NCBI GenBank assembly: GCA_030746295.1
Contig: JASLMY010000187.1
Coordinates: 1 to 9,752, forward strand
DNA from: Alphaproteobacteria bacterium
GTDB taxonomy: Bacteria > Pseudomonadota > Alphaproteobacteria > GCA-2731375
Direction of reading: 5' to 3'
Length of the DNA stretch: 9,752 nucleotides
The notes below the pieces were generated by a model. It ran no database searches and was not told the origin of the DNA. It saw nothing but the letters and a program-made list of their open reading frames with translations. Below, piece by piece: positions 4,402-9,752 of this stretch (within the stretch, counting starts at the first letter, position 1; every line of letters starts with the position of its first letter). A program made the position numbers and the translations under genes.

Positions 4402-5598
4402 CTAATCGCTGGCGAGGCGGGCGCTCATGCCGGCGCCGGCCTGCTGGTTCATGTGGCGCGAGACCAGCAGGCTCAGGATCTCGCTGGAGCCGTCGCCGAT
4501 CTGGAAGAGTTTGCACTCGCGATAGAAACGCTCGACGGGGTGGTCCTTGGTCAGGCCATGGCCGCCCAGGAACTGCACCGCCTGCTGCGTCACCTCGGTG
4601 CAGACGCCGCTGGCGAAGAGCTTGGCCATCGAGGCGGCGATCGACGCATCAGGCGTTTCCGCCTCGGCCAGCGCCGCCGCGTGATAGGACAGTTGCCGTG
4701 CCGCTTCGATCTTGGCCGCCAATTCCGCCGCCCGAAAGCGGAGCGCCTGGAACTGGGCCAGCGGCCGGCCGAATTGCTCTCGCGTCTGCATATATCCGAG
4801 CGCATAGTCCAACGCCCCTTGGGCCACGCCGACGCAGCGGGCGCCATAGATCGCCCGGGTCTTGGCGAAGCCGACCTGGATATAGCGGAAGCCGGCGCCC
4901 GGCTCGCCCATCAGCGCCGAGGCCGGCACCCGGCAATCCTCGAAGACGAGCTCCGCGATCGGGTTGGCGGTATGCGCAATGGTCTCGTAGGTCTGGCCGA
5001 CCGAGAAGCCAGGCGTGCCCGGCTCGATCAGGAAGAGGCCGATGCCCTCGCCCCGCGGCGCCTCCCGGTCGGTGCGCGCGAACAGGACCACGAGGTCGGC
5101 GCGGCTGCCGTTGGTGATGAAGATCTTGCGGCCGTTGATCACCCAGTCGTCGCCGTCGGCACGCGCGAAGGTCTGGATCGAGGCGGCGTCCGAGCCCGCC
5201 TCGGTCTCGGTCAGGGCAAAGGCGGTGATGATCTCGCCTGCTGCCACCCGGGGCAGGAAGCGGCGCTGCTGCGCCTCGCTGCCGGCGAAGATAAGCGGCC
5301 CCGTCAGCAGCGTCACCGGATAGCTGGCGGCCGAGAACCAGACCGCCGAGATCTCCTCCAGGATCAGCGCGGAAGAGAGCGTGTCGAGCCCCAGGCCGCC
5401 GAACTCCGTCGGCACGTCGAGCCCCATGAAGCCCCGCTCGGCCATCAGCTCCAAGACCTCGCGCGGCAGGGCTGCGCCGGCGCGCTCCACCTCGGCGGCG
5501 ATCGGCGCCAGCTCGTCACGGGCGAAGCGGCGGGCTGCCTCCTTGAGGCGGCGTTGCTCGTCGGTCAGCCGATAGGTCGATGCGGGCGACGGGTCCAT
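4402..5598 (-). CDS. Acyl-CoA dehydrogenase family protein with Asp at the catalytic base position
   Basis: A complete 398-residue FAD flavoprotein; the family oxidises acyl-CoA at C2-C3 and passes electrons to ETF. The ATG at 5598 has GGAAGG (5605-5610) six nt upstream, which excludes the much longer open frame reaching back to 6057. Domains run as expected: N-terminal helices (about 11-115), middle barrel with FALTETEAGSDAA (127-139) and WVINGRKIFITNGSRAD (152-168), C-terminal helices with REQFGRPLAQFQ (273-284) and QFLGGHGLTKDHPVERFYR (342-360). The notable feature is IGDGSSEI (367-374): canonical enzymes have Glu (IYEGT or IGEGT) where this has Asp369. The alternative base site of the isovaleryl-CoA type appears to be Thr247, so Asp369 is the only candidate carboxylate I see. 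It lies 23 nt after the amidohydrolase gene and is last in the minus-strand run. Confidence 0.92.
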   Translation of the reverse strand: MDPSPASTYRLTDEQRRLKEAARRFARDELAPIAAEVERAGAALPREVLELMAERGFMGLDVPTEFGGLGLDTLSSALILEEISAVWFSAASYPVTLLTGPLIFAGSEAQQRRFLPRVAAGEIITAFALTETEAGSDAASIQTFARADGDDWVINGRKIFITNGSRADLVVLFARTDREAPRGEGIGLFLIEPGTPGFSVGQTYETIAHTANPIAELVFEDCRVPASALMGEPGAGFRYIQVGFAKTRAIYGARCVGVAQGALDYALGYMQTREQFGRPLAQFQALRFRAAELAAKIEAARQLSYHAAALAEAETPDASIAASMAKLFASGVCTEVTQQAVQFLGGHGLTKDHPVERFYRECKLFQIGDGSSEILSLLVSRHMNQQAGAGMSARLASD

Positions 5599-5621: not shown

Positions 5622-6503
5622 CTAAGTCACGCCGCGCCGGTCGAGCTTGTAGAGGCGGATCAGGTTGTCGCGGAGGAACTTCCGCTTCGGCTCCGGGCGC
5701 AGCTCCAGGGCCTCTATCTCGCGCCGCGTACGCTCGAAGTCGAGGACGGGGAAGTCGGTGCCGAAGATCACCTTGTCCTGGCCGTAGGTGTTGATGAAGT
5801 TGACGAAGCTCGCCGGCCAGTATTTCGGGCTGTGGGCGTCGGAGCCGAGATAGACGTTCTTGTGCTTCCAGGCCATGGCGATCGCCTCGTCGGCCCAGGG
5901 GATGCCGACGTGAATGCCGACCAACTTGAGCTCGGGGAAGTCGCAGGCGACGCCGTCCATAGTGATCGGCCGGCCAACCGAGCGGATCGGATAGTCGGCC
6001 GCGTAGACCATCGACTGGCCGATCTGATGCTGGATCGGCACGTCGAGCTCGCAGCACTTGGCATAGATCGGATACCAGCGGGCGTGGTCGATCGGCAGCT
6101 CGAACCAGTGCGGATAGCCGTGCGCGCCGACATAGCCGCGCCGCTCGACCGCGTCCTGGAGCTCGTAGACGGCCCGCATTCCCTGCGTCGGGTCGATGCC
6201 GCAGAGGCCGAAGAAGCGGTCCGGGTGCTCAGCGAGCGCCCGGTCCACGACCTCCAGCGGCATGTGGTAGCAGGACGGGTGGCCCAAGCGGCCGCACTTG
6301 GCGGCAATCAGGAAGGCGCGCTCGATGCCGGCGGTGTCCATGCGGCGCAGCATCTCGTCGAGCTCGACGCCCTTCCGGGTCGCCGCGTCGACCCGCATCT
6401 TGTCGCCGAAGAACTGGTCGCGCCATTCGGGCCGGAAGGCGAGCGCCTCGGCGTTGTAGATGTTGACGACACCGTCGATGGCGAGCACGTCGTGGTCGGT
6501 CAT
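5622..6503 (-). CDS. ACMSD-like amidohydrolase (amidohydrolase 2 family) lacking the HxH metal motif
   Basis: A complete 293-residue TIM-barrel protein of the amidohydrolase 2 group, which contains decarboxylases, hydratases and hydrolases acting on aromatic or keto acids. The barrel end is clear: LKLVGIHVG (192-200) with His198, the YLGSDAHSPKYW segment (218-229) and VIFGTDFP (245-252) with Asp250. The first strand, however, reads IDGVVNIYN (9-17) where metal-dependent members read DxHxH, so both histidines are replaced (Val12, Asn14). The strand-5 histidine also seems replaced, by Gln160 in VPIQHQIG, though neighbouring His159 leaves this open. I believe close relatives share the VVN sequence, which would make this a distinct, uncharacterised subfamily. 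The ATG at 6503 has only a distant GGAG upstream. It lies between the corrinoid fusion and the dehydrogenase, so a step in the same pathway is likely. Confidence 0.85.
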   Translation of the reverse strand: MTDHDVLAIDGVVNIYNAEALAFRPEWRDQFFGDKMRVDAATRKGVELDEMLRRMDTAGIERAFLIAAKCGRLGHPSCYHMPLEVVDRALAEHPDRFFGLCGIDPTQGMRAVYELQDAVERRGYVGAHGYPHWFELPIDHARWYPIYAKCCELDVPIQHQIGQSMVYAADYPIRSVGRPITMDGVACDFPELKLVGIHVGIPWADEAIAMAWKHKNVYLGSDAHSPKYWPASFVNFINTYGQDKVIFGTDFPVLDFERTRREIEALELRPEPKRKFLRDNLIRLYKLDRRGVT

Positions 6504-6566: not shown

Positions 6567-6634
6567 AACCCGCTCTCCCCAAGCCCGAGAGGCAGTGAGG
6601 ATAGCGAGTTCCCATCGCCGACGCCATTCGGGCT
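6567..6634. repeat. Imperfect palindrome, REP-like intergenic element
   Basis: Two interleaved inverted repeats fill the rest of the gap between the corrinoid fusion and the amidohydrolase: an imperfect 12-bp pair (6567-6578 with 6599-6610, two mismatches) and the perfect 7-bp pair AGCCCGA (6582-6588) with TCGGGCT (6628-6634), the latter reaching into the stop codon of the fusion gene. A small alternative stem CTCTC/GAGAG (6573-6577, 6587-6591) also exists. The style resembles repetitive extragenic palindromes, but only one copy is in the window, so repetitiveness is not shown. Confidence 0.35.
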
Positions 6635-8582
6635 AGGCGGCGAGGAGCTTCTTGGCGAGCGCCACGGCGTCGCCCGCATCTTGGGCATAGCCGTCGGCGC
6701 CGGCATCGTCGGCGAACTTCTGGTTCACGGGCGCGCCGCCGACAATGATCTTGACGGTGTGGCGAAGCTGCGTCTTCTCCAGGCCCTCGATGACGTCCTT
6801 GATCTTCGGCATCGTCGTGGTGAGGAGCGCCGAGAGGCCCAGCACGTCCGGCCTTTCGTCGCGCACCGCCTCGATGAACTGCTCGACCTCGACGTTGGCG
6901 CCGAGGTCGACGACCTGATAGCCGACGCCCTTCAGCATGCTGACGACCATGTTCTTGCCGATATCGTGCAGGTCGCCGAGGACGGTGCCGATGACGACCT
7001 TGCCGGTGTTGCCCGCGTCGGAATCGACGAGGTGCGGTTCCAGCAGCGTGATCCCCTCGTTCATGGCCCGGGCCGAGAGCAAGACCTCGGGAATGAAGAC
7101 GGTGCCGTCGGTGAAGCGGCTGCCGATCAGGTCCATCGCCGGCAGCATGCCCTTGTTGAGGACGTCGCTGGCCGAGATGCCCTGGTCCAAGAGCGCCTGG
7201 GCATCCTCGAGGATACCTTCTTCGTCGCCCTCCAGCACGTCCTCGGTGATCTTCGCGAAGGCCTCTTCGACGACCAGGGTCTGTTCCGTCGCTGCCTCGC
7301 CGGTGGCGGCGGCCCGGGCCTGCTCCAAGGTCTCGGCGCTGACCGGCCGGTAGGCGCCGGCGGCGAGCGGCAGGCTCCCCTCTTTCGCGATCCGCTCGCC
7401 GATGTATTCGAGGCGCGAGAAATCGGCGTTCGGCGGCGTCGTGTCGCCGATCGAGGCGACAAAGCGGGTGCCTGGTGCGACCGCCTTGAAGAAGTCGTCC
7501 ATGAAGTCCTTCAGATCATCGAAGGTGGTCGATTCCTCCAGCAGCATCATCTCCGGGATGCCGCCGTGGATGGTCAGGTGCCCCGGCCGGCACCAGCGGT
7601 CGTAGTACTCGCCGATCTTGACCTTGGTCATCGGCCAGGGCGTGACCGCGTCGGCCACGTCCATGTGGCTGTCGGCGACCAGCTCCATCAGGCCTTCGTT
7701 CTCGCCGTCGGGATGGGTCACCATCACGATGCCTTCGGGCCGCAGCCGGTCGGCGGCCTTGTGGCACCAGGGCAGGAAATGCTCCCGGTAGAGGTCGGGA
7801 TAGGTGATCATGTCGTCGACGTTGGCCGACCAGAGGACGGCATCGACGCCCGAGCCCGCCAGCACCTCGATGAGCTGGTCGTAGTAGTTGCCCATGGCCT
7901 CCGCCAGCGCCGCCATCTCCTTCGGGAAGTCGTGGTGGTGCAGGTAGAAGTCGGTGGCGTCGAGGAAGGTCTTCTGGATGTAGTGGATCGGCGCGGTGCA
8001 GCCGAGCCCGGCGCCGAAGGCGACGGCGACCCCGTCGCCGGCGAGGGATTCGCGCCATTTGTCGTAGCGCTCGTAGGCCGGCTTGATCTTGATGTTCCCG
8101 AAGATGTGGGTCAGCGGCGCATAGTCCTCGCGCCCCTTGATCGCGTGCTCCTTGATCCAGCCGATGGAGGCGCCGGCGCGCTTCATCTCGGTGGTCATGC
8201 CGTGGCGGACGCTGAGCGTGCCCGCGGGCGTCACGTACTCGACGTGGCGCATGTCCTCCTTCTCGTTCCGCTCTCGCGTCACCCGGACCTCGACGTCCGC
8301 CGGTAGCTCGAAGGTGTAGGGCATTTCCTTGATGTCGAAGAGGCCGATGCCCATGTGGTCGTCGTCCTCGGGCCTGGCCAGCTTCTGCCACTCGGGCACG
8401 AACTTGTGCAGCGGCCAACCCATGGCGCGGTGGATCTCCTCGACGCTCATGCCGGCGTAGCGCTCGGGCATGGTGTCGGTCAGCACCTTGGCGTTGTGCC
8501 AGAGGTCGATGCGCGGCACCCAGGGCATGACGTCGACCGTCTCGCCGCGGAAGACGGCCATGATCGTGTCGCGATGGTTCAT
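6633..8582 (-). CDS. Fused URO-D-type methyltransferase / corrinoid protein
   Basis: A complete 649-residue fusion. Residues 1 to about 400 form a uroporphyrinogen-decarboxylase-fold methyltransferase (DTIMAVFRGETVDVMPW at 5-21, WSANVDDMITYPDLY at 251-265, LTIHGGIPEM at 336-345). After a linker rich in Ala and Glu (about 401-437), a four-helix cap (438-517) leads into a B12-binding Rossmann domain with DLHDIG (537-542; His539 is the lower cobalt ligand), the SALLTTTMP strand and loop (584-592) and IIVGGAPVN (612-620). Methyl donor binding and corrinoid carrier are therefore in one chain, as in CmuA (chloromethane). The CoM-type zinc site HxC...C appears changed to His290-Pro-Asp292 and Asp380, arguing against a simple CmuA or MtaA equivalent. 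ATG 8582 has an ideal AAGGAG eight nt upstream. Likely role: cytosolic demethylation (O-, N-, S- or halo-methyl), substrate unknown; a reactivase and methyl acceptor must be elsewhere. Confidence 0.9.
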   Translation of the reverse strand: MNHRDTIMAVFRGETVDVMPWVPRIDLWHNAKVLTDTMPERYAGMSVEEIHRAMGWPLHKFVPEWQKLARPEDDDHMGIGLFDIKEMPYTFELPADVEVRVTRERNEKEDMRHVEYVTPAGTLSVRHGMTTEMKRAGASIGWIKEHAIKGREDYAPLTHIFGNIKIKPAYERYDKWRESLAGDGVAVAFGAGLGCTAPIHYIQKTFLDATDFYLHHHDFPKEMAALAEAMGNYYDQLIEVLAGSGVDAVLWSANVDDMITYPDLYREHFLPWCHKAADRLRPEGIVMVTHPDGENEGLMELVADSHMDVADAVTPWPMTKVKIGEYYDRWCRPGHLTIHGGIPEMMLLEESTTFDDLKDFMDDFFKAVAPGTRFVASIGDTTPPNADFSRLEYIGERIAKEGSLPLAAGAYRPVSAETLEQARAAATGEAATEQTLVVEEAFAKITEDVLEGDEEGILEDAQALLDQGISASDVLNKGMLPAMDLIGSRFTDGTVFIPEVLLSARAMNEGITLLEPHLVDSDAGNTGKVVIGTVLGDLHDIGKNMVVSMLKGVGYQVVDLGANVEVEQFIEAVRDERPDVLGLSALLTTTMPKIKDVIEGLEKTQLRHTVKIIVGGAPVNQKFADDAGADGYAQDAGDAVALAKKLLAA

Positions 8583-8689
8583 CGGTCGCTCTCCTTTTCC
8601 AGGGATCGACGCCCGGCCGTCATGCGTCGCCGCATCCGGGCGGCGACGACGTCGATCTCCACCTGGCGGGCGACTGTCGCTCGCCCCAC
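8579..8689 (-). CDS. Possible 36-residue leader ORF overlapping the methyltransferase start
   Basis: A short frame begins at GTG 8689, preceded by GGGGA five nt upstream, and ends with a TGA that overlaps the methyltransferase ATG as ATGA. The product would be Arg-rich (for example ARMRRRMTAGRR) and soluble; I recognise no homologue. The 4-nt overlap and the plausible ribosome site argue for translational coupling. However, the strong ribosome binding site of the methyltransferase lies inside the ORF, and GC-rich DNA gives such frames by chance. Its coding region also covers the nested hairpin, so translating it would melt that structure. Confidence 0.22.
   Translation of the reverse strand: MGRATVARQVEIDVVAARMRRRMTAGRRSLEKESDR
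8591..8596 (-). promoter_or_regulatory. Strong Shine-Dalgarno of the methyltransferase fusion
   Basis: The minus strand reads AAGGAG, eight nt before ATG 8582. It fixes the start of the fusion gene and is the best ribosome binding site seen in the window. It lies only about five nt after the foot of the nested hairpin, so folding could influence access. Confidence 0.75.
8602..8659 (-). promoter_or_regulatory. Nested hairpin in the leader of the methyltransferase fusion
   Basis: An inner, perfect 9-bp stem, CGTCGCCGC (8625-8633) with GCGGCGACG (8640-8648), closes a 6-nt loop. An outer perfect 8-bp stem, GATCGACG (8604-8611) with CGTCGATC (8650-8657), encloses it, leaving a 13-nt internal loop on one side and a single nt on the other. 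In the transcript the apical loop contains CCGG and the internal loop contains GGCCGGG, so a tertiary contact is possible. The ribosome binding site follows at once. It may be a regulatory leader or a processing or termination structure; there is no U tract. I found no B12-box (GCCACTG-like) element, so I do not call it a cobalamin riboswitch. Confidence 0.5.
8665..8685. repeat. Inverted repeat in the crotonase-methyltransferase gap
   Basis: GGCGGGCGA (8665-8673) and TCGCTCGCC (8677-8685) pair over nine positions around a 3-nt loop, with a G-T pair on the plus strand that becomes an A-C mismatch in the minus-strand transcript. On the plus strand a TTTT run (8692-8695) follows shortly, but no plus-strand gene ends here. 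It may add to the structured leader upstream of the methyltransferase or be a weak end signal. Confidence 0.35.
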
Positions 8690-8741
8690 CGTTTTCCCCA
8701 GTCAGAAGCGGTCCCTCGAAACCCTCTGAAGCCCCCGATGC

Positions 8742-9599
8742 CTAGTCCGTCTCGTCGATCGCACGATTGCGCGTCCAATCCCAGGTTCCCTCGTCACGCT
8801 CGGCGACGGCCTGCTTCCATCCCACCGACTCCGAGCGCGCCTTGAAGGTCAGGCCTTCCGGCGAATGGCGGGTGATACCGTCGAAGATCGTCGCCAGGCG
8901 CTGCGTGCTCATCATGCCGGTGGCCTCGATGGCCTGGTTGATGACCATCTTCTGCATCGCCAACTGGTTGATCGGCACGCTCGCCATGCGGTGGGCCATG
9001 GTCTCGACCTCGGCATCCAGCCGGTCCTCGGGCACGGCCTTCAGGATCAGGCCCATCGCCTCGGCCTCGCGGCCCGTGATCCGGTCGCCGGTGAAGAGCA
9101 TTCGCTTGGCCTTTTCGGGCCCGAGGCGATAGACCCACATCGCCGTCGTCGGGCAGCCCCAGACGCGGGCCGGCATGTAGCCGATCTCGGCCGTCTCGGC
9201 CATCAAGACGAGGTCGGCGCAAAGCGCGATGTCCGACCCGCCCGCCACCGCAAAGCCATGCACCTTGCAGACCACCGGCTTCAGAGCGCGCCAGAGCGAC
9301 ATGAAGTGCTGGGTGTTGGCCCACATGAAGCGGTAGTCCCGAATCGGATCCCAGGGCATCTCTTGCGTCACCTGGTTGGTGCTGTCGCCCTCGGCGTAGT
9401 GGGCGAGGTCATAGCCGGCGCAGAAGGCCCGCCCGGCACCCGATAGGACCATGACGTGCACGTCCGGGTCGGCATCCGCCTCGGCCACGGCGGCGGCGAG
9501 CTCGACCGGCAGGTCGTCGTCGATGGCGTTCATGACTTGCGGCCGGTTCAGCGTGATCCGCCCGATCCGCCCGTCTTTTTCATAGAGCACCTTCGCCAC
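8742..9599 (-). CDS. Crotonase-family protein (enoyl-CoA hydratase/isomerase-like) lacking the usual catalytic glutamates
   Basis: A 285-residue crotonase-fold protein; the family acts on acyl-CoA thioesters by stabilising an enolate in an oxyanion hole. I start it at GTG 9599 because GGAGG (9606-9610) is six nt upstream; the in-frame GTG at 9605 directly abuts that site and would be too close. The fold is clear: RITLNRPQVMNAID (14-27), oxyanion segments AFCAGYDL (58-65) and HGFAVAGGSDIAL (114-126), and RMLFTGDRITGREAEAMGL (166-184). At the two positions occupied by catalytic Glu in rat enoyl-CoA hydratase (Glu144, Glu164), I see Asp123 and Ala144 (in MPARVWGCPTT). Simple hydration is thus doubtful; isomerase, hydrolase or decarboxylase activity, or acid-base residues elsewhere such as the region 72-95, are alternatives. 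It lies 30 nt after the upstream gene, consistent with an operon. Confidence 0.88.
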   Translation of the reverse strand: MAKVLYEKDGRIGRITLNRPQVMNAIDDDLPVELAAAVAEADADPDVHVMVLSGAGRAFCAGYDLAHYAEGDSTNQVTQEMPWDPIRDYRFMWANTQHFMSLWRALKPVVCKVHGFAVAGGSDIALCADLVLMAETAEIGYMPARVWGCPTTAMWVYRLGPEKAKRMLFTGDRITGREAEAMGLILKAVPEDRLDAEVETMAHRMASVPINQLAMQKMVINQAIEATGMMSTQRLATIFDGITRHSPEGLTFKARSESVGWKQAVAERDEGTWDWTRNRAIDETD

Positions 9600-9605
9600 G
9601 ATCAC

Positions 9606-9610
9606 CCTCC
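9606..9610 (-). promoter_or_regulatory. Shine-Dalgarno deciding the crotonase start
   Basis: The minus strand reads GGAGG followed by GTGATCGTG. The first GTG has zero spacing and the second has six nt, so the second (9599) is the likelier initiation codon and the protein is two residues shorter than the longest frame. Confidence 0.6.
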
Positions 9611-9629
9611 GTCGGTATGTCGGGCTGCT

Positions 9630-9752
9630 CTATTCGGCGGCCCGCATGCTCAGGTCCTCTTCCTGCTGCAGGGCGAAGATCGAGCTGTAGCCGCCGGACC
9701 AGTCGGGCGGCATCATGCAGGTCTCCATGTCGAACTCGGCCCAGCGCGCCCG
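9630..9752 (-). CDS. C-terminal end of an unidentified protein
   Basis: A minus-strand frame enters from the window edge and ends at TAG 9630-9632, giving 40 residues that start RARWAEFDMETCMMPPDW and end FALQQEEDLSMRAAE. Evidence that it is coding: it is open throughout, the composition (several Trp, Met, Phe and acidic residues) differs from random GC-rich shadow frames, and it ends 30 nt before the crotonase start on the same strand with a good Shine-Dalgarno between. I do not recognise the family from this fragment. It is probably co-transcribed with the genes that follow. Confidence 0.6.
   Translation of the reverse strand, partial: RARWAEFDMETCMMPPDWSGGYSSIFALQQEEDLSMRAAE

Follow-up and report, generated by a model that had tools for sequence, protein, structure and literature searches.

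A single-chain URO-D methyltransferase–corrinoid protein from Alphaproteobacteria and its possible role in methyl-ether demethylation

The stretch of DNA analyzed here (the window; 9,752 nucleotides, contig JASLMY010000187.1 of the assembly GCA_030746295.1 of an Alphaproteobacteria bacterium) carries a gene for a single protein chain, referred to below as the fusion, in which a URO-D-fold methyltransferase domain is followed by a corrinoid-binding module (Table 1). The methyltransferase domain matches PF01208 over residues 218–393 (3.5e-7; 30.0 bits against a Pfam gathering cut-off of 23.9), while the C-terminal part matches B12-binding_2 (PF02607, 3.9e-19) and B12-binding (PF02310, 5.1e-28), both over their cut-offs. 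As judged from these matches, the URO-D domain is divergent and the corrinoid module, spanning residues 443–640, is complete in its two parts. The C-terminal 205 residues also align end to end with the MtgC and MtbC models (NF047996 and TIGR02370; 1e-64) and have DxHxxG in common with them, but score under the curated cut-offs (217.9 vs 370 and 198.9 vs 215.3, respectively) and are here fused to a URO-D domain. The fusion thus contains the two Pfam domains and the DxHxxG motif by which corrinoid proteins are recognized. Among solved corrinoid proteins it matches 1y80 (4e-56), and a whole-chain profile finds CdmB (9rui, 1.3e-6) and MtaA (0.0037) for the URO-D part. Since whole-length relatives of 93–94% identity exist, the reading frame is not a chance one. 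The initial annotation, made from the sequence alone, had described a URO-D methyltransferase and a B12 module with DLHDIG in one chain of 649 residues; the Pfam domains and the whole-length relatives bear this out, and the proposed B12-dependent methyltransferase activity agrees with the same domains and motifs. By domain and motif, the fusion is very probably a substrate:corrinoid methyltransferase (MT I) joined to its own corrinoid protein.

The two motifs are strongly conserved. Among the matches listed (120 of 1504), all 120 homologs, which are whole or partial family members of 56–93% identity, have DxHxxG and HxDGEN, and 117 have the exact DLHDIG; the figure of 1504 gives those of the 7995 scored candidates that match at E 0.001 and is not a count of the fusion family. 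According to the available text of Kountz and Balskus (PMC10418091), S-methyltransferases of the URO-D superfamily have His-Cys-Cys around zinc, and among O-methyltransferases carboxylates or non-coordinating residues take the place of one Cys or of both. In our profile alignment, D292 of the fusion sits at the place of the first Cys, and the loop with Asp380 is three residues shorter than in MtaA-like proteins. The HxD motif in place of HxC fits the published O-type pattern and would favor oxygen over sulfur chemistry, without being proof of it. In the part of the CdmB study available (PMC13222342), no zinc is seen in the structure. Besides H290, D292, and E294 of the HxDGEN motif, R24, H200, K275, and R390 are invariant in the family alignment.

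The domain order of the fusion is that of CmuA from Methylorubrum extorquens CM4 (pCMU01; PMC3621897), where an N-terminal URO-D methyltransferase and a C-terminal corrinoid module likewise form one chain and the methyl group is handed to tetrahydrofolate (H4F) via a second protein, as we propose for the fusion. The two proteins are only 24% identical (23% in a larger alignment). At the same places, CmuA has HTC and NTQDIG and the fusion HPD and DLHDIG, so that Gln in CmuA and His in the fusion occupy the cobalt-ligand place. The MtaA/CmuA model TIGR01463 has no match to the fusion at E 0.001, and no cmuB or other cmu gene was recognized by Pfam among the eight genes of the window. In a tree with the fusion family, CmuA forms a very long branch with no close clustering; the trees were quick searches without bootstrap that took in one CmuA and left out MtbA and MtvB. 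The low identity, the missing HxC, the absence of a TIGR01463 match, and the long branch rule out the fusion as a member of CmuA, and the earlier description of it as distinct from CmuA stands.

The nearest relative, at 94% identity, is locus L002 in the metagenome-assembled genome of Rhodospirillaceae bacterium ARS1032 (G001; G and L numbers denote genomes and loci), which also carries a 67% paralog of the fusion. Genome searches around G001 gave matches in 3 of 385 genomes of its class, 3 of 15 of its order, and 1 of 398 of its phylum. In the order of genome G002, a match at 1e-60 is present in 21 of 194 genomes; as read from the list, it spans the full query in ten of them (in one case with an internal stop), takes in a piece of the methyltransferase end in one, and is confined to the corrinoid part in ten. 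The methyltransferase domain was matched in 22 of 395 genomes in the phylum of G002. Relatives of the fusion occur in both Alphaproteobacteria and Desulfobacterota, and the fusion is therefore not tied to an aerobic setting. COX1 is over the cut-off in 9/9 genomes tested, two of them Desulfobacterota (G001 has one at 8e-39), and for this reason is no proof of aerobic life.

An unfused form of the system also exists. With the first 353 residues as query, stand-alone methyltransferases of ~400 aa with 41–45% identity came to light, and those of the fetched loci have 400–420 aa and 43–45% identity. In nine of ten such loci, a corrinoid gene of 211–225 aa lies on the same strand 12–136 bp downstream of the methyltransferase gene; in the tenth, the contig ends 257 bp after it. 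The adjoining corrinoid gene of these loci (L140–L148) resembles the arrangement in the CdmBC, MtvB, OdmB, VdmB, and MtoB systems as given in the available text of PMC13222342. These are MT I systems of the URO-D superfamily, like the fusion, but with a separate corrinoid protein and another neighborhood, and the profile match to CdmB is the weak one given above. In the methyltransferase-domain tree, one branch (98 SH-aLRT) separates 35 fused from 19 unfused rows, and the alphaproteobacterial rows, together with one further row, nest inside the fused rows of Desulfobacterota. Because this branch sets all fused rows apart, with the alphaproteobacterial rows nested among them, a single origin of the fusion and its later arrival in Alphaproteobacteria are probable. 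In two loci (L074:8162-9934 and L152:1477-3252), another URO-D protein (~590 aa) is encoded near the true fusion. Its URO-D domain shows HSDG; this second protein also has a corrinoid module (Pfam for L074, BLAST for L152) and hence represents another fusion lineage.

A search for a corrinoid reactivase, an H4F methyltransferase, and MetF, as the initial annotation had proposed, found all three types in one cluster of G001. There, genes for a corrinoid protein, a URO-D methyltransferase, a DUF1638 protein, a MetF-like protein, a pterin-binding methyltransferase (PRK07535; 350.6, over the cut-off of 259), and the reactivase RACo follow each other in a row. RACo was found in 6/6 and DUF1638 in 7/7 of the fusion-bearing genomes searched. 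The pterin-binding methyltransferase gene lies directly beside the fusion gene in L075 (Pfam) and in L076, L077, and L080 (BLAST). It is near 4/30 fused and 5/10 unfused loci and also near 10/16 loci of other corrinoid proteins, and so marks corrinoid systems generally. TRAP importer, methyltransferase, corrinoid, URO-D, pterin-binding methyltransferase, and RACo genes stand together in L140 and L146. Ruegeria pomeroyi makes similar parts during betaine demethylation, as reported in the available text of PMC12478193. This likeness and the presence of RACo, pterin-binding methyltransferase, and MetF-like partners support a transfer of the methyl group to H4F.

Clusters of several URO-D methyltransferases with a corrinoid protein and a reactivase are also known as type 1 mlp clusters (Kountz and Balskus, PMC10418091). 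In the portion available of that work, their methyltransferases nearly always have His-Cys-Cys, are proposed to act on S or Se, and are commonest in Firmicutes, in contrast to the HxD found here; the C. ljungdahlii mlp cluster is described there as having no H4F methyltransferase, whereas a pterin-binding methyltransferase gene is present in 9/40 and TRAP genes in 22/40 of our fused and unfused loci. An MtaA-like URO-D gene of ~340 aa is present in 12 of 29 clustered loci (L074, L075, L077, L140–L142, L146, L148, L151, L152, L155, and L156); HxCG is seen in 11 of them, TIGR01463 is over the cut-off in L074, the one scanned, and the gene product is a putative thiol-type methyltransferase. Upstream of the unfused methyltransferase cluster of L142, a PocR/AraC-type regulator, a corrinoid protein, and DUF1638 are encoded together (L142:2064-4793).

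Gene neighborhoods were counted by tblastn in fetched stretches of 3–22 kb. The fused loci comprise seven found among the homologs, the G131 locus, G396 in three pieces, nine of the eleven further places with a whole-length match in the G002 order, and ten places from the G002 phylum. L047 (internal stop) and L049 were left out, and L048 is a fragment; L072 and L073, probably one gene in two pieces with an overlap over residues 283–328, were counted once, with L073 left out of the pooled count. The unfused loci are 10 of the 16 shorter places from the G002-phylum search. As controls, we used 20 random stretches from nine of the genomes, partly on the same contigs, and 16 loci of other corrinoid proteins from the search of the G002 order. 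The pooled count of URO-D genes takes in the fusion family as well and was disregarded.

Importer and hydroxyacid genes mark the context in half of the relatives' loci. In the pooled counts, TRAP genes are present near 13/30 fused and 9/10 unfused loci, compared with 0/16 other corrinoid and 1/20 random loci. For the set of 2-hydroxyacid genes, including glycerate kinase and GarR, the corresponding counts are 15/30, 0/10, 1/16, and 2/20. The first 20 fused loci differ from the 20 random ones in TRAP (9/20 vs 1/20), in the lactate racemase gene larA (7/20 vs 0/20), and in LarA, GlcD, or 2-hydroxyacid dehydrogenase taken together (11/20 vs 1/20). Ten new fused and ten unfused loci were fetched to test the importer/hydroxyacid idea. 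Against the same random stretches, the new fused loci have TRAP in 4/10 (p 0.03), LarA in 3/10 (p 0.03), the hydroxyacid set in 4/10 (p 0.03), and a TRAP or tricarboxylate importer in 4/10 (p 0.08); the unfused loci have TRAP in 9/10, LarA in 0/10, and the hydroxyacid set in 0/10. Scores over the NCBIfam cut-offs were obtained for the Ni lactate racemase of L156, the glycerate kinase of L155, the tartronate-semialdehyde reductase of L081, and, barely, the GlcD of L079 (568.7 vs 567.9).

Of the 16 TRAP binding proteins in alignment A7, three were compared with the PDB. The structure 2zzv, which we take to be TTHA0766, ranks first for L155 (1e-52) and L145 (5e-78) and second for L027 (3e-38). 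Lactate-binding TTHA0766 chains, so named by their depositors (7e9y and 8zmz), rank second or third for the same three proteins, which also match the 'ketoacid-binding protein' 7ug8 and, more weakly, other binders including those of sialic acid and of sorbitol/mannitol. These matches suggest lactate-like acids as ligands and point in the same direction as the hydroxyacid genes. The 67% paralog (L027/L071) is accompanied by a LacI regulator, a TRAP importer, a dehydratase-like enolase (under the cut-off), an SDR gene, and a GMC oxidoreductase, and in L027 by two amidohydrolases, one of them weakly fuconolactonase-like; these surroundings look like sugar-acid use.

Taken with the HxD motif, this context leads us to propose, tentatively and at slightly less than an even chance, that the substrate of the fusion family carries an oxygen-linked methyl group on a small carboxylate. 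For the window's own enzyme, to keep this substrate class is on balance unlikely. That the fusion uses its corrinoid to demethylate methyl ethers of short hydroxyacids or of sugar acids, passing the methyl group on to H4F, is a reading that we also hold with some reserve, as nearly balanced between right and wrong. In the proposed mechanism, a small carboxylate with a methyl group would bind in the URO-D barrel; the likeliest candidates are 2-hydroxy or sugar-type acids that carry the methyl as an ether (O-CH3), for example methoxyacetate, O-methyl-lactate, or O-methyl-glycerate. The barrel would bring this methyl group up to the cob(I)alamin of the C-terminal module, for which His539 is the predicted lower ligand. 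A separate pterin-binding methyltransferase would then move the methyl group from methyl-cob(III)alamin to H4F, and a RACo-type ATPase with DUF1638 would restore cob(I)alamin. Running in the demethylating direction, the reaction would release the free hydroxyacid to racemases, oxidases, or kinases, and the methyl-H4F would be oxidized.

Several observations weigh against this proposal. The best solved match of the URO-D profile, CdmB, is a haloalkane dehalogenase, and when the profile was limited to the URO-D part, no PDB match appeared at E 1. We could not assign a residue to the third metal ligand, which falls in a gap of the profile alignment. The loci are related, so that the neighborhood p-values overstate; collapsing at 60% identity leaves eight fused clusters, and in this count, which covered the fused clusters alone, 5/8 have an importer and 5/8 a hydroxyacid gene. 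All ten unfused and seven of the ten alphaproteobacterial loci have no 2-hydroxyacid gene. Curated cut-offs are not reached by the LarA proteins of L075 (354.5 vs 460) and L155 (a second LarA kind; 394.1 vs 400), the GlcD of L025 (237 vs 568), or the dehydratase-like enolase (93 vs 500) and 2-hydroxyacid dehydrogenase (189 vs 455) of L027. By eye, the binding proteins of L076, L079, and L006 (3 of the 16 aligned) look like another DctP kind. Finally, the window itself contains no importer, hydroxyacid, or C1 partner gene, and the fusion has acyl-CoA genes as neighbors (Table 1).

Table 1. Features of the fusion gene and its neighbors in the window
Feature	Position	Strand	Remark
Fusion gene, URO-D-fold methyltransferase + corrinoid-binding protein	6633..8582	minus	649 aa, ATG start
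Methyltransferase domain (URO-D fold), residues 1 to ~410	7353..8582	minus	Pfam; unfused ~400 aa counterparts exist
HPDGEN, residues 290-295	7698..7715	minus	HxD at HxC zinc-ligand place of MtaA-like proteins and CmuA
Asp380	7443..7445	minus	Invariant across the 20 sequences of alignment A6; close to third zinc-ligand place, placement unsure
B12-binding_2 (cap helices), residues 443-515	7038..7256	minus	Pfam
B12-binding domain, residues 527-640	6663..7004	minus	Pfam
DLHDIG, residues 537-542	6957..6974	minus	Expected lower cobalt-ligand motif
AAGGAG, Shine-Dalgarno-like	8591..8596	minus	8 nt upstream of fusion ATG
Crotonase/enoyl-CoA hydratase family	8742..9605	minus	Upstream; sole whole neighbor kept in 94% relative
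Amidohydrolase family 2	5622..6503	minus	Downstream; not beside fusion in nearest relative
Acyl-CoA dehydrogenase	4402..5598	minus	Downstream; link to fusion unproven
AcnX/aconitase X protein, C-terminal half	1-681	plus	Cut by window edge

The neighbors of the fusion had suggested a demethylase that feeds a CoA-ester pathway. The DNA of L002 aligns with the window from 6632 to 9752, ending right at the stop codon of the fusion; the amidohydrolase and the acyl-CoA dehydrogenase are therefore no neighbors in L002, unless its short contig is misassembled. Of the acyl-CoA genes, only the enoyl-CoA hydratase is kept beside the fusion there. In the first 20 fused and 20 random loci, ligase genes are found in 2/20 vs 2/20, acyl-CoA dehydrogenase in 3/20 vs 2/20, enoyl-CoA hydratase in 5/20 vs 1/20 (p 0.09), and amidohydrolase in 3/20 vs 0/20 (p 0.12), with no significant enrichment. 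Similar genes do recur in close kin. In G396 (78% and 75% identity over two pieces), an aminotransferase gene precedes the fusion gene and, further downstream behind a flagellin gene, there are acyl-CoA dehydrogenase, enoyl-CoA hydratase, BKACE, and amidohydrolase genes; the paralog locus L027 has ligase, enoyl-CoA hydratase, and amidohydrolase genes. A CoA-ester pathway is thus unlikely as the function of the fusion family, and this recurrence keeps such a role possible in the clade of the window.

The same neighbors bear on two alternative substrates. The fusion could be a single-chain O-demethylase of methoxylated aromatics, similar to MtvB, OdmB, or VdmB, with the ligase, acyl-CoA dehydrogenase, enoyl-CoA hydratase, and amidohydrolase of the window degrading an aromatic or arylaliphatic acid. 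Aromatic acids are among the substrates that TRAP systems can carry, the acyl-CoA neighbors partly recur in close kin as described, and L081 has an HpaI-like aldolase gene (under the cut-off, 119 vs 369). These enzymes belong to the same superfamily with the same expected O-type metal site (available text of PMC10418091). No ring-cleavage or ring-reduction gene was, however, recognized among the 88 Pfam-scanned proteins, which are not all of the neighbors, and it is the hydroxyacid genes that are enriched and not, to a significant extent, the acyl-CoA genes. We consider this alternative unlikely.

Demethylation of a sulfur compound such as dimethylsulfoniopropionate (DMSP), with the ligase, acyl-CoA dehydrogenase, and crotonase near the fusion acting as analogs of DmdB, DmdC, and DmdD, would fit the apparent marine origin of relatives and the MtaA-like gene in 12 of 29 clustered loci. 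Each of the 120 homologs listed has HxD and not HxC, the S-type motif by the rule given in the available text of PMC10418091, and the synteny of the acyl-CoA dehydrogenase is lost in the 94% relative; on these two grounds the DMSP route was set aside, as quite improbable. The PDB matches of the three neighbors (best 60) are not labeled as Dmd proteins, which counts for little with labels that are mostly generic.

A quaternary-amine demethylase, for instance of glycine betaine as with MtgBCD of marine bacteria, is less probable still. The corrinoid module is nearest to MtgC/MtbC-type models, and relatives share DUF1638, RACo, pterin-binding methyltransferase, and MetF-like genes with Ruegeria pomeroyi, but the betaine MT I proteins named in PMC12478193, as far as its available text goes, have pfam06253, a domain absent from the fusion chain, and Pfam gave no MttB-type methyltransferase domain in it at E 0.001. 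The methyl-halide option of the initial annotation, a CmuA-like dehalogenase, is the most improbable, even with the shared domain order, the occurrence of both proteins in Alphaproteobacteria, and the chloromethane dehalogenase CdmB as best solved match, given the distance from CmuA in identity, HxC, cobalt-ligand place, tree, and TIGR01463, the solute-importer context of the relatives, which a gas would not need, and a CdmB cavity described as mainly aromatic in the available text of PMC13222342, set against the invariant residues of the fusion listed above, some of which may line its cavity.

If methyl-ether demethylation of short acids is the function, the family as a whole, fused and unfused, could supply the genes so far missing for the demethylation of aliphatic methyl ethers. 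O-methyl-2-hydroxyacids or O-methyl sugar acids taken up by TRAP importers would be processed by a single-chain corrinoid enzyme that passed from Desulfobacterota, in one transfer, to marine Alphaproteobacteria with terminal oxidases. We regard this wider picture as possible, if rather doubtful. Acetobacterium reportedly ferments methoxyacetate to glycolate and acetate (Schuppert and Schink, in 1990), a physiology in different organisms that the proposed reaction would explain; the literature consulted names no gene for it. Among the titles and opening lines of abstracts listed in searches for aliphatic O-demethylase genes and for single-chain or fused URO-D/corrinoid proteins, most subscription journals being out of reach, none deals with this family. 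In the literature consulted, the substrates of URO-D corrinoid systems are aryl methyl ethers, methyl halides, thiols, and selenols; aliphatic methyl ethers, a carbon pool that has been little studied, would join them. Oxygen-sensitive B12 methyl transfer would then be kept in bacteria carrying terminal-oxidase genes, and the existence of a fused and an unfused form amounts to a natural experiment on the effect of linking MT I to its corrinoid protein.

A PhyH-type dioxygenase gene is found beside the fusion gene or one gene away in four loci (L002:4536-5546, L027:15391-16257, L071:10996-11946, and L004:11997-12881); in L002 it lies upstream of the enoyl-CoA hydratase gene (BLAST). PhyH is near the fusion in 4/10 alphaproteobacterial loci and in none of the 20 other fused, 10 unfused, 16 other corrinoid, and 20 random loci. 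Right after the stop codon of the fusion, L002 continues with unrelated sequence that holds no long intact gene (L002:8544-9841), one frame of which, by eye, resembles a piece of a cyclase.

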